Shown piece after piece: positions 17,408-25,786 of a stretch of 64,000 nt of DNA. The notes beneath the pieces were generated by a model that was not told the origin of the DNA, did not search any database, and saw nothing but the letters and a program-made list of their open reading frames with translations. How positions within the stretch are numbered: position 1 is the first letter of the stretch; each line of letters begins with the position of its first letter. The position numbers and the translations under genes are program-made. Origin of the DNA: Pseudomonas frederiksbergensis (lineage in GTDB: Bacteria; Pseudomonadota; Gammaproteobacteria; Pseudomonadales; Pseudomonadaceae); NCBI RefSeq assembly GCF_035751725.1, contig NZ_CP142104.1, positions 1,240,001 through 1,304,000 of the forward strand, read 5' to 3'.

Positions 17408-18814
17408 TTACCCCGCCAACTTCATCTGCCGCACCGGCAGCTCCACTCGGAACGTCGTCCCCACGCCCACTTCACTGCTCACCGTGATCTCACCGTGGTG
17501 TTTTTTCACGATGCCGTAGGACAGCGATAACCCAAGCCCAGTGCCTTGGCCGATAGGCTTGGTGGTGAAGAACGGGTCGAAAATCTTCTGCAATGTTTCC
17601 GGTGGCATGCCTGAGCCGGTGTCGGCGACTTCGATCCAGACGGTGTCGCCTTCGACGCCGTTGCGCAGGGTGATGGTGCCACGTTCCGGGCCGATGGCCT
17701 GGGCGGCGTTGACGATCAGGTTCATGATCACCTGGTTGATCTGCGACGGCAGGCACTCCACCTCTGGCAGTGGCGTGTACTCCTTGACCACGTCGGCCTT
17801 GTACTTGATCTCGTTGGCGACGATGTTCAAGGTCGAATCCATGCCCTGTTGCAAATTGGCCATTTGCCATTCCTGGCTGGAGTCGACGCGGGAGAAATCC
17901 TTCAGGTCCTTGACGATCTGGCCGACGCGGGCGATGCCGTCCTTGGACTCCTTGATCAGGATGGGAATGTCCTCCACCAGGAAATCCAGTTCCACCTCCT
18001 GGCGCAGGCTCTTCAAGTTCATCACCAGCTCCGGCGAGGCAATGGCCTGCTCGGCGCTGCCATAGGCCTGGAGCATTTCCTCGAGCTTGCTGAAATAACC
18101 ACCCAAGGCGCCAAGGTTGGAGGAAATGAAGCCGATCGGGTTGTTGATCTCATGGGCGACGCCGGCTGCCAATTGACCCAGGGAGGCGAGTTTCTCCGAC
18201 TGCACCAGTTGGCTCTCGAGCATCTTGCGTTCGTCGATTTCCATCTGCAGCAGCTCGCTGGCCTGCTTGAACGCCAGGGTGCGTTGCTCCACGAGGTCTT
18301 CGAGCTTGTTCATCTTCAGGCGGGCACGGGAGGTCATCTCCCATTTGGTGGTCAGGGTGTTCGCCATCTGCTGGACTTCGATGTTGTCGAAGGGCTTTTT
18401 CAGGATCAACAGGCGGTCATGGCCGTTGAGACGGTCGAGCAGCTCGTCCCAGGAATAATCCGAATAAGCGGTGCAGACCACAACTTGCAGTTGCGCGTCG
18501 ACCTTCCACAGCTCTTCGATGGTTTTGGCACCGTCCCAGCCTTCGGGCATGCGCATGTCGACGAACGCCAGGGCATAGGGGAGGTCCTTGGCCAATGCCT
18601 GTTGCAATTTGGCCAGGCCTTCCTGGCCACCGTAGGCCGAGTCGAGTTCAAACACGGTGGCGGCGGGTTTCGGGGCCTCGCCGAACAGTGCGCTTTCCAT
18701 ATCCTGCAAGTCGCTGTCGCTCTCATCCTCCGGTGTCAGGATCTTGCGGAAGTCTTCATGGATGGCGGGCGTATCGTCGATCAAGAGGATGCGCCGGTTG
18801 CTCATGTTGTTCAT
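17408..18814 (-). CDS. Receiver-histidine kinase fusion (REC-HisKA-HATPase)
   Basis: Soluble hybrid of 468 aa. The receiver is N-terminal: [17 protein letters not shown] supplies the acidic pair, [12 protein letters not shown] the phospho-acceptor Asp (about residue 89), VCTAYSDYS the Thr, and LILKKPFD the Lys. Between helix 1 and strand 2 there is a long insertion rich in Asp/Glu (about residues 25-60). A coiled coil follows, then a kinase core: [16 protein letters not shown] (phospho-His), [10 protein letters not shown] (N box), DTGSGM (G1) and [11 protein letters not shown] (G2). The same receiver occurs in the two GGDEF-EAL proteins upstream. The start overlaps the stop of the membrane kinase gene by ATGA; Met4 (18805) is an alternative. 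Confidence 0.87.
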
Positions 18815-23498: not shown

Positions 23499-25786
23499 GG
23501 GTTGCTCTCCGATAGCTGGCTTGCCGGCCGGGTCCAGTGATCGGCCACCGGGACGATGGTGCCGGCCTTGAGCAGGGCGGCAGCCTGGTCGCTGTCCACC
23601 ACGGTGCTGAAATAATGCCCCTGGGCCTGCATCGGCCCACCGCTGGACATCAGGGTGGTGCGTTGTTCCTGGGTCTCGACCCCTTCGGCGATGATGCCGA
23701 TGCCCACGTCCCGGGCGAAGTTGATGATCGCCCGCAGGGTCGTGGCGTTCTCCGGATCGTCATTGGCGCTGTCGAGGAATCGCTGGGCAAGCTTGAGGTG
23801 GTTGACGCGGTAGGTCTTGAGGTAATCGAAGGAGGAATATTCGGTGCCGAAATCATCGATGGCCACCTGCACGCCCAGCTCGCACAGGCGCGGCAGCACG
23901 TCGTTGTGGGTCCATTTGGTCTGGGCCAGGGTCGCTTCGGTGACGTCGAAACGCAGGTCCCAGGGCGCCAGCTCCCACCGGGCGGTGGTGCGCAACACAT
24001 CGTAGATCAGTTCCGGTCCGGTCTTGAGTTGGGTCAGGGACAGGTCGATGGCGATGACGGGGGGCGCCATGCCTTGGTCACGCCATTGGCGCATCTGTTG
24101 GCAGGCCTGGTCCAGCACCCAATGACCGAGCCCGATGATGATCCCGGTTTTCTCGGCGGCCGGCATGAACGCCGCCGGTTCCAGCCAGCCGCGCTGAGGA
24201 TGGTTCCAGCGCACCTGCACGCCCATGCCAAGGATCCGGCCGGTGCCGAGGTCGACTTCGGGCAGGTAATGCAACCGCAACTCGTCGTTCTCGATGGCGT
24301 TGCGCAGATCGTTGGCCAGGGCGACCCGGTCCGTCACCTCCTGGTTAATTTCCTCGTTATGGAAGTGGTACTGGTTGCGGCCCTTTTCCTTGGAACGGTA
24401 CAGGGCCATGTCGGATTGGGCCATCAGGCTGTCGGCGCTTGGGCTCTGCGGGGTGTACAGGCTGATGCCGATACTGACGGAAATGCGTACGTCGTTGCCG
24501 TCCAGGGAGTAGGGCGCCACGAGGGCGTCGCGGATCTTCGCCGCCAGCGCGGCACAGTGGGTCGCCTCATGGACGTCCAGTTGCAGGATGGCGAATTCGT
24601 CGCCGCCCAGGCGCGCGACCACGTCGTTTTCCCGGGTACAGGCCTTGAGCCGCGCCGCGACCTCCTGCAACAGCAGATCGCCGATGGGGTGGCCGAGGGT
24701 GTCGTTGATCCGTTTGAAATGGTCCAGGTCCAGGTAGAACATCGCAAACGGCGCGGCGCCCCGGCGTGCGGCAGCGAAGGCCTGATGCAGGCGTTCGATC
24801 ATGGTGGCGCGGTTGGCGAGCCCGGTCAGCCCGTCGGTGCGGGCCAGCAGGGCGATTTTATCTTCGGCCAGCTTGCGCTCGGTGATGTCGAGGATGATGC
24901 CTTCGACTTCCAGCAGCAGGCCTTGCTCGTTGCGCACCGGGATATAGCGGTTCTCCACCCAGCGGAACGCGCCGTCGCCGGTGCGCATGCGAAATTCAAT
25001 GGAGGCGCCCGCCGTGTCGCGGTCCAGCACGCGGACCATGGCTTCGTCGACCTTGGCCTGGTCATCGGGATGGATCAGCGTTTGCGCCCAATCCGGCGAA
25101 TTGATCAGTTGCGCGGCGACATGGCCGAACTTGGTGATGTTGTGGGAGATATACATCAACGGGAACGGCGGCTCGCCGCGCAGGCGATAGAGGATGGTCG
25201 GGCTGTTCTGCACGATTATATTGGCGTCGGCCAACTCCCGGGTGCGTTCCTCGACCGCTCGTTCGAGCATGTCCATTTTCAACGCCGCGTCTTCGGTCAT
25301 CTGCCACTTGACGGTCAGGGTGCTGGCCATTTGGCGGATTTCGATGGCATCGAAGGGTTTTTTCAGGATCAGCAGCCGGTCGCCCAATTCGAGGCGATCA
25401 GCGATGTCTTCCCAGGAATAGTCCGAATAGGCGGTGCACAGGGCCACTTGCAACTTGGGGTCGACGCGCCACAGCCGCTCGATGGTTTCAAGGCCGTCCC
25501 AGCCCGGCGGCATGCGCATGTCGATGAATGCCATGGCGAAGGGCTTGCCCTGGGCAAGGGCCGTTTCGACCTTGTTCAAGGCTTCCATGCCCTGGAACGC
25601 CGATTCGAGCTCGAAGCTCTGGATGGAAACCGCCACCGGCGCGCCGAACAAGGCTTCCTCGGCGCTGCTGAGGCTGTCTTCCGGAACTGCGTGGGGGCTG
25701 AGAATCTTTCGAAAATCCTCATGGATCGTTGGCGTATCGTCCACGATCAGTATCCGCCGATTGGATCTTTCCATCGGCAGGCTCAT
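23495..25786 (-). CDS. Receiver-PAS-GGDEF-EAL(degenerate) protein, predicted diguanylate cyclase
   Basis: Response regulator of 763 aa. The receiver has [28 protein letters not shown] and [15 protein letters not shown] domain follows (about residues 200-310; FRMRTGDGAFRWVENRYIPV), then an intact GGDEF (ARLGGDEFAIL) preceded by RxxD (REND), so product inhibition is likely. The EAL domain is degraded: the EAL signature is replaced (GMGVQVRW), DDFGTGYSS is DDFGTEYSS, and KIDQSFV is KLAQRFL. It is therefore predicted to make rather than break c-di-GMP, opposite to its downstream partner. It is the first gene of the minus-strand signalling run and lies divergent to the receiver/HD-GYP-like gene. 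Confidence 0.88.
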   Translation of the reverse strand: MSLPMERSNRRILIVDDTPTIHEDFRKILSPHAVPEDSLSSAEEALFGAPVAVSIQSFELESAFQGMEALNKVETALAQGKPFAMAFIDMRMPPGWDGLETIERLWRVDPKLQVALCTAYSDYSWEDIADRLELGDRLLILKKPFDAIEIRQMASTLTVKWQMTEDAALKMDMLERAVEERTRELADANIIVQNSPTILYRLRGEPPFPLMYISHNITKFGHVAAQLINSPDWAQTLIHPDDQAKVDEAMVRVLDRDTAGASIEFRMRTGDGAFRWVENRYIPVRNEQGLLLEVEGIILDITERKLAEDKIALLARTDGLTGLANRATMIERLHQAFAAARRGAAPFAMFYLDLDHFKRINDTLGHPIGDLLLQEVAARLKACTRENDVVARLGGDEFAILQLDVHEATHCAALAAKIRDALVAPYSLDGNDVRISVSIGISLYTPQSPSADSLMAQSDMALYRSKEKGRNQYHFHNEEINQEVTDRVALANDLRNAIENDELRLHYLPEVDLGTGRILGMGVQVRWNHPQRGWLEPAAFMPAAEKTGIIIGLGHWVLDQACQQMRQWRDQGMAPPVIAIDLSLTQLKTGPELIYDVLRTTARWELAPWDLRFDVTEATLAQTKWTHNDVLPRLCELGVQVAIDDFGTEYSSFDYLKTYRVNHLKLAQRFLDSANDDPENATTLRAIINFARDVGIGIIAEGVETQEQRTTLMSSGGPMQAQGHYFSTVVDSDQAAALLKAGTIVPVADHWTRPASQLSESNP

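Follow-up and report, generated by a model that had tools for sequence, protein, structure and literature searches.

Conserved pairing of a di-heme peroxidase with a DAHL receptor domain, and a candidate branched relay to c-di-GMP, in Pseudomonas

This study concerns a six-gene locus of Pseudomonas frederiksbergensis that lies in a 64,000-nucleotide stretch of the 6.0 Mb chromosome (contig NZ_CP142104.1, positions 1,240,001 to 1,304,000; the whole stretch is referred to as the window). Open frames and Pfam matches define a run of five minus-strand genes encoding, in this order, a receiver-PAS-GGDEF-EAL protein, a receiver-GGDEF-EAL protein, a di-heme cytochrome c peroxidase (CCP), a membrane histidine kinase with a DAHL domain, and a receiver-HisKA-HATPase protein. 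A divergently oriented HD-GYP gene (26014-27381) is located 227 bases from the first gene of this run. All coordinates are those of exact open frames, and the loci of relatives are designated by L-numbers. A preliminary description, made from the letters of the window, had pointed out an overlapping run of genes for a membrane kinase, a periplasmic di-heme CCP and three receivers with insertions, and we find all of these at the coordinates listed here. It overlooked the DAHL domain in the membrane kinase, the HisKA/HATPase output at 17408-18814, and the degenerate HD-GYP gene starting at 26014.

23495..25786, minus strand: protein of 763 residues with a receiver (28-residue insertion), PAS, GGDEF and EAL domains (Pfam; motifs counted in 61 rows)
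21624..23498, minus strand: protein of 624 residues with a receiver (27-residue insertion), GGDEF and EAL domains (Pfam; motifs counted in 78 rows)
20607..21566, minus strand: di-heme CCP of 319 residues (PF03150, 195 bits)
18811..20610, minus strand: membrane histidine kinase, in which two transmembrane segments flank the DAHL domain and an HNxGN-type core follows (PF19443, 158.2 bits; HATPase_c)
17408..18814, minus strand: kinase of 468 residues with a receiver (28-residue insertion), HisKA (HEINN) and HATPase domains (Pfam; HEINN in 77/78 rows)
26014..27381, plus strand: ordinary receiver followed by a degenerate HD-GYP domain, NosR family (NF053512, 582 bits, cut-off 400)

The ATGA overlaps that had been described are present at three gene junctions. 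Four-base start-stop overlaps join the genes at 23495-25786 and 21624-23498, the CCP and kinase genes (20607-20610), and the kinase gene and the last gene of the run (18811-18814), and a 57-base gap separates 21566 from 21624. The open frame of the DAHL kinase extends over 18811-20628, but the start at 20610, which overlaps the ccp stop codon, is preferred. The DAHL kinase is identical to one in P. frederiksbergensis SI8 (L012). Among 80 relative loci, the full six-gene order was found in 57, and 17 lacked only the receiver-PAS-GGDEF-EAL gene; the remaining six (L001, L027, L042, L046, L049, L080) were reduced, split or located at a contig end. Since the order recurs across these loci, the gene run is not a chance arrangement.

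The pairing of CCP with the DAHL domain is widely conserved. In Pseudomonas, a CCP gene is located directly upstream of DAHL, on the same strand, in 90 of the 91 DAHL-bearing loci. With a Pseudomonas DAHL profile, matches were obtained in 35/369 genomes of the class and 25/398 genomes of the phylum, and in 64 of the 67 non-Pseudomonas loci thus identified the gene directly upstream, on the same strand, encodes CCP, with gaps ranging from −62 to +53. The three exceptions are L160, which has no CCP, L163, which is cut by a contig end, and L198, which turned out to have no DAHL domain. To escape the bias of this profile, the phylum search was repeated with the Pfam DAHL model, which gave 73 matches at E≤1e-5 (71 above the Pfam cut-off) in 52/398 genomes and none in 14 control genomes. 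Six of these matches belong to Pseudomonas. The remaining 67 include 28 from loci already fetched, all with CCP, and the 39 newly fetched loci comprise 28 with CCP directly upstream, 3 at contig ends and 8 without CCP. This amounts to 56/67 outside Pseudomonas, or 56/64 evaluable loci, with 28 of the 56 overlapping the 64 found by the profile. DAHL domains lacking CCP in the phylum sample were low-scoring matches (E 4e-17 or weaker). The ccp gene ends in an ATGA overlap in 89/90 Pseudomonas loci, and in 41/64 and 17/28 loci of two non-Pseudomonas sets. Genes of the CCP_MauG family are scarce, with 76 match rows in 56 gammaproteobacterial genomes, 27 of which have none, so that CCP genes are too few for the pairing to arise by chance. 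The tree distances of CCP and DAHL are correlated (r 0.52, with a maximum of 0.385 in 1000 permutations) for the 45 of 92 non-Pseudomonas pairs whose DAHL was covered by the profile over 120 residues. The neighbourhood comparison proposed at the outset therefore reveals a CCP association that is conserved well outside Pseudomonas. An input from the peroxidase to the kinase becomes more plausible in that the pairing with the sensor is kept so far afield, but the partner that CCP tracks is the DAHL domain and not the receivers.

While CCP stays, the outputs attached to DAHL vary and include kinases, hybrid kinases, GGDEF and GGDEF-EAL proteins. Output labels require at least 14 changes on the DAHL tree and 10 on the CCP tree. 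The cross-family DAHL tree is poorly resolved, with 11 of its 53 inner branches starred. When starred branches alone are counted, the kinase label must change just 1 and 3 times, respectively, and the number of output swaps is therefore unsure. We also considered whether a periplasmic binding protein replaces CCP where it is missing. This idea was not supported, as the genes upstream of L250 and L260 encode tetrapyrrole methylases and that upstream of L264 a nucleoid protein; the upstream genes tested at L251, L254 and L258 had no Pfam match.

The CCP of the window is the sole CCP_MauG match in its genome. Its start resembles a signal peptide, as read from the sequence without a predictor, and it aligns over nearly its full length, both heme sites included, to the solved bacterial CCPs of PDB entries 9qdt, 1iqc and 3o5c.

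21366..21380, minus strand: first heme motif CASCH, the low-potential heme by alignment (CxxCH in 90/90 Pseudomonas rows and 90/92 others, 2 being gaps)
20937..20951, minus strand: second heme motif CIACH, the high-potential heme by alignment (Pseudomonas rows and 92 others)

At the second motif the first Cys is present in 89/90 and the second Cys and the His in 90/90 Pseudomonas rows, and the motif is kept in 92/92 others. The axial Met is kept in 90/90 Pseudomonas and 87/92 other DAHL-linked CCP rows, the catalytic Glu in 87/90 and 69/92, and the catalytic Gln in 87/90 and 83/92, respectively. The residues that serve as heme ligands and in catalysis in bacterial di-heme CCPs are accordingly present, namely two CxxCH motifs, axial Met, catalytic Glu and catalytic Gln, and DAHL-linked CCPs also keep the Trp between the hemes. 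In contrast to the CcpA/CcpR-type enzymes, which match nearly full length with both heme sites, the DAHL-linked CCPs have lost the distal His of the first heme. Its position is occupied by Phe or another residue, His being found in 0/90 Pseudomonas rows and 1/92 others (2 of these 92 being gaps). Work on Pseudomonas CCP leads one to expect that, once the distal His is lost, the first heme needs no prior reduction to be open, so its absence suggests that the first heme of DAHL-linked CCPs is permanently open. An AlphaFold model of CCP built from the single sequence had a predicted local distance difference test score (pLDDT) of 38.5 and was not used.

Some members of the CCP_MauG family oxidise a partner protein, and CCP might act on DAHL in the manner of MauG, oxidising one of its residues and thereby maturing or switching it. 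Two candidate residues, Y73 and H219, are conserved in 78% and 86% of CCP-linked DAHL domains. However, the axial Met of ordinary peroxidases is retained almost throughout, the curated cut-offs for MauG (150 vs 444 bits) and MbnH (177 vs 363 bits) are missed, and the best alignments are to ordinary bacterial CCPs, which makes such an action very improbable.

The DAHL domain scores far above its Pfam cut-off, and in an AlphaFold model it has the helical bimodular (HBM) fold, with McpS, TorS and PilJ ranking top in Foldseek. A search of PDB chains with the DAHL profile gave no sequence matches at E values up to 1. The NCBIfam VirA-like model NF010411 covers residues 17-345 of the kinase at 143 bits, far below its cut-off of 647, and the protein does not qualify as a VirA.

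19840..20514, minus strand: DAHL domain, periplasmic, helical fold like McpS and TorS (PF19443, 158.2 bits vs cut-off 38)
19579..19596, minus strand: H-box LHNVGN of the kinase core (81/81 rows)

McpS was solved with malate or succinate, and its presence among the nearest folds raises the alternative that DAHL binds a small ligand of its own, with CCP as a companion enzyme that is co-transcribed for peroxide removal under the same conditions. The high retention of catalytic Glu and Gln in Pseudomonas fits this alternative, since CCP could be an ordinary peroxidase, and so does L042, where ccp was dropped. A companion enzyme would have no need, however, for start-stop coupling to a single receptor domain in many families whose outputs differ. 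Most CCP genes, moreover, are not located beside DAHL, the pair being found in just 5 of the 56 genomes that contain the 76 CCP rows. Finally, DAHL domains without CCP mostly lack a set of signature residues (D74, K127, N135, S136, H219): at least four of the five are present in 81/93 DAHL domains with CCP and 2/9 without, a contrast that is partly built in because the five residues were chosen post hoc from the same alignment and most CCP-less DAHL domains are more divergent overall. An earlier count of a narrow DAHL motif (36/94 with CCP, 0/10 without) was dropped in favour of this alignment-based count. On balance, we consider the companion enzyme unlikely, although it is the most serious competitor to a role of CCP in sensing.

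The three receivers of the run are close relatives. They share the motifs DDTP.IH.DFRKIL-, DMRMP.GWDG- and one further 12-residue motif, identity to the first receiver being 62% for the second and 59% for the third. The genome has no others of this kind; its two remaining matches score weakly, with E values of 2e-6 and 6e-4. Each carries a long insertion between helix 1 and strand 2, at a place where the receiver of the neighbouring HD-GYP protein has 4 residues.

25616..25699, minus strand: insertion of the first receiver, 28 residues, 4 acidic
23331..23411, minus strand: insertion of the second receiver, 27 residues, 5 acidic
18653..18736, minus strand: insertion of the third receiver, 28 residues, 8 acidic

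In relatives the insertion has 25-32 residues and a mean net charge of about −4, and this pattern fits 57/60, 76/77 and 72/77 rows of the first, second and third receiver, respectively. Both the phospho-acceptor Asp of DMRMP and the conserved-Lys motif L[IV]LKKPFD are present in all rows (61/61, 78/78 and 78/78).

The preliminary description had assigned different outputs to the three receivers. This stands for an active-looking cyclase and an active-looking phosphodiesterase of cyclic diguanylate (c-di-GMP), while the third receiver heads a second kinase. The motif residues on which these assignments rest are those with established roles in such domains. In the first protein (23495-25786) GGDEF is intact in 61/61 rows, and both the EAL triad and the Asn of the NxS motif of the EAL domain are found in 0/61, so that with a degenerate EAL site it is probably a phospho-regulated diguanylate cyclase. 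The second protein (21624-23498) shows the reverse arrangement. EAL is intact in 70/78 rows, the others having one-residue changes, and KID and DDFGTG are present in 78/78, whereas the canonical GGDEF is found in 0/78 (GSDEF in 71, GADEF in 5, VSDEF in 1, GSDQF in 1); this protein is probably a phospho-regulated c-di-GMP phosphodiesterase. In the HD-GYP protein YN replaces HD in 77/77 rows, and judged by these residues the protein would be catalytically dead. The receiver-HisKA-HATPase protein (17408-18814) has the domain set of a second-tier kinase. No ANR box was found in the divergent promoter region, where the best match in the window has 4 mismatches. The best matches in 76 loci have 2, 3 and 4 mismatches in 4, 50 and 22 cases, compared to 5.7, 33.9 and 35.3 in shuffled sequences, and the slight excess at 3 mismatches is attributed to the relatedness of the sequences.

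To follow how the parts of the locus travel, 12 loci were added to the 80, and the resulting 92 Pseudomonas loci were scored for six modules: CCP, DAHL, HNxGN core, insertion receiver, HEINN-type core and HD-GYP. All six are present in 80 loci. The HNxGN core and receivers are missing in 4, HD-GYP in 3 (two at contig ends), the HEINN core and HD-GYP in 3 (one at a contig end), and these two together with CCP in 1; a last locus has only the HNxGN core and receivers. The HEINN-type core and HD-GYP occur together in 84/92 loci, HD-GYP alone in none, the core alone in 3 (2 at contig ends), and neither in 5. Among 199 Pseudomonas genomes (HNxGN core at E≤1e-100, insertion receiver at E≤1e-30), the insertion receiver is present in 76/76 genomes with the HNxGN core and in 2/123 without it, there as a weaker match. 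Four genomes have DAHL without the HNxGN core, none of them with a receiver, and 117 have neither core nor receiver. Outside Pseudomonas, 27 insertion-receiver loci were fetched from Gammaproteobacteria (29/36 reported matches, 21/22 genomes), and 16 of them contain an HNxGN-type kinase; neither DAHL nor, with the Pseudomonas CCP profile, CCP was detected in any of the 27. Natural REARRANGEMENTS separate the modules: CCP goes with DAHL, the HNxGN core with the insertion receiver, and the HEINN core mostly with the degenerate HD-GYP domain.

In four species (L117-L120) DAHL is fused via a coiled linker straight to a HEINN-type core. These species lack the HNxGN core as well as every insertion receiver but keep CCP and HD-GYP. 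In a tree built from 44 selected DAHL rows, the fusions form one clade (100/97) that is nested in the two-protein form and sister to L028 (100/97). A tree of HEINN cores (33 rows) gives the same picture, with values of 99 for L028 plus the fusions and 82 for the fusions by themselves. The fusion would represent the reduction of a two-step chain to a single step; the HNxGN kinase, and likewise the receiver that heads the second kinase, would then be intermediates between DAHL and the HEINN core. The possibility that CCP belongs to the receivers was rejected, as the Pseudomonas CCP profile detected no CCP in the 27 fetched outside loci and the four fusion species keep CCP without receivers.

Three more HNxGN kinases are encoded elsewhere in the genome, none with these receivers adjoining. 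The three receivers may for this reason serve as a common hub. One is a second DAHL-HNxGN kinase (L116:8428-10221, at ~3101466 in the genome) with no CCP or receiver nearby and 1/5 signature residues. Another (L173:9722-13510, at ~3389733) has 1262 residues and two kinase cores flanking an ordinary receiver, the second core being of the HNxGN type, and the third (L174:9520-10803, at ~5765546) is an ethylene-receptor-like kinase (ETR1_N, 129 bits) with an HNxGN core and no adjoining insertion receiver. In another genome (G517, L172), an ETR1_N-HNxGN kinase gene is convergent to a receiver-PAS-GGDEF-EAL gene, the sole receiver match of that genome. L150 has an extra short HNxGN kinase gene (L150:7063-8190) between the DAHL kinase and receiver-kinase genes. 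No CCP is found near the HNxGN kinases with other sensors (L121, L172, L173, L174).

Based on the present data, we consider it fairly probable that the locus encodes a transmembrane sensing module coupled to a peroxidase, with CCP as the co-sensor of DAHL, followed by a branched phosphorelay that sets c-di-GMP. The secreted di-heme CCP would be a dedicated periplasmic co-sensor in physical contact with DAHL, much as TorT acts on TorS, and peroxide turnover or the redox state of the hemes would be the signal, altering how CCP sits on DAHL. DAHL would then drive the HNxGN core, which would phosphorylate (or dephosphorylate) the three insertion-bearing receivers and thereby control the active-looking cyclase, the active-looking phosphodiesterase and the switch of the HEINN-type second kinase. 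The second kinase would in turn act on the receiver of the divergent NosR-family protein. The dead HD-GYP domain of this protein probably binds, and thereby regulates, a further c-di-GMP enzyme, as in HnoD/HnoB, or acts as NosR may. Opposite effects of phosphorylation on the cyclase and the phosphodiesterase would yield a switch. NarR of Legionella combines such opposite effects within one protein (PMC8846402).

The phospho-accepting His of a kinase is usually followed by an acidic residue, which is absent from the HNxGN box in 81/81 rows. The relay could accordingly be wired differently, with the HNxGN kinase being mainly a phosphatase, or with each of the two kinases responding independently to an input of its own and the second being no more than tuned by its receiver. 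NosK has been argued to be mainly a phosphatase in vivo (PMC12570481), and the additional HNxGN kinases of the genome indicate that several inputs may share the receivers. However, the co-occurrence of core and receiver and the DAHL-HEINN fusion fit a single chain from DAHL to the second kinase, and even a phosphatase role would leave the HNxGN kinase and the receivers partners. We regard a different wiring as improbable.

Several observations weigh against the proposed sensing module and relay. The activity of the HNxGN kinase is uncertain because of the missing acidic residue, and the best Foldseek E-value for DAHL is only 1.9e-3. Gene pairing by itself is silent on whether CCP is the input or a companion enzyme. 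Eight evaluable DAHL domains of the phylum sample have no adjoining CCP, and L160 and L250 still carry the signature residues without an adjacent CCP. The correlation between the tree distances of CCP and DAHL would be raised by shared descent alone. With respect to the relay, no HNxGN kinase was found in the fetched stretch of 11/27 non-Pseudomonas receiver loci, and L150 has the second kinase without HD-GYP. L042 has lost ccp and retains DAHL and two receivers; between its receiver-GGDEF-EAL and DAHL kinase genes (L042:8135-11890) ccp is deleted to its apparent last codons, and the HEINN kinase and HD-GYP are also missing.

Periplasmic partners of transmembrane receptors are a known kind of system. 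The co-sensors TorT, LuxP, XylFII and ChvE are ligand-binding proteins (PMC9149312, PMC6321045), TorS being driven by TorT (PMC6321045) and the periplasmic region of VirA by sugar-bound ChvE (PMC9149312). The fold of DAHL is near that of TorS, but in place of the ligand-binding TorT the partner here is a di-heme enzyme. Compared to VirA-ChvE, the VirA-like model matches below its cut-off, CCP is not a sugar-binding protein, and the kinase core and outputs differ. What is new is the di-heme peroxidase as the partner and the retention of the pair while the outputs change. On the output side, the closest likeness is to the HnoX-HnoK-HnoB/HnoC/HnoD network of Shewanella, in which a heme protein works with a kinase and the pathway branches to more than one receiver, among them a functional phosphodiesterase and HnoD, a degenerate HD-GYP protein that regulates HnoB by binding (PMC6335343, PMC8846402). 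HnoX, however, is an HNOB-domain sensor that binds nitric oxide (NO) and acts on HnoK, whereas here a secreted peroxidase is combined with a membrane DAHL kinase, and the locus differs further in its two successive tiers of kinases and its additional cyclase. NosK likewise has HEINN and phosphorylates NosR, an HD-GYP protein with an altered HD motif (PMC12570481). The HD-GYP protein of the window exceeds the NosR family cut-off and its putative kinase is of the HEINN type, but HD is changed to YN and not to HG as in the described NosR (PMC12570481), and the single FIST (NosP-type) match of the genome is located elsewhere, at 2.76 Mb. A search of one paper library by titles and abstract openings, with most subscription journals outside its scope, retrieved nothing that links CCP to DAHL and, for CCP in connection with c-di-GMP or sensors, nothing on this system; for the DAHL domain it gave one table line (PMC8998981). 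In the main text of a census of c-di-GMP sensing (PMC8846402), the words peroxidase, hydrogen peroxide and cytochrome do not occur, and DAHL is found solely as part of an author's name.

Elsewhere in the window, genes with SpvB, TcdB-middle and RHS-repeat domains, resembling a Tc complex, are found at 52155-59489. The protein encoded at 11-2344 has TcfC and CooC_C domains, and its gene probably serves in pilus assembly.

Taken across the Pseudomonadota, the same observations allow a wider reading, on which we are evenly divided. DAHL receptors would be a class of sensors with a standard extracytoplasmic enzyme as co-receptor, a constitutively open di-heme CCP, through whose conformational or redox change periplasmic peroxide or respiratory electron flow would be read and passed to outputs of the kinase or c-di-GMP kind that can replace one another. 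Several other HNxGN kinases of Pseudomonas, among them an ethylene-receptor-like one, would converge on the same three receivers. If this is true, the peroxidase co-sensor would be a route from extracytoplasmic peroxide or electron supply to c-di-GMP or kinase signals, and through the co-sensor role the DAHL domain would acquire a function that can be tested. From the way in which the locus has been rearranged in nature, moreover, the connections within a branched c-di-GMP relay can be predicted and put to the test in soil Pseudomonas.

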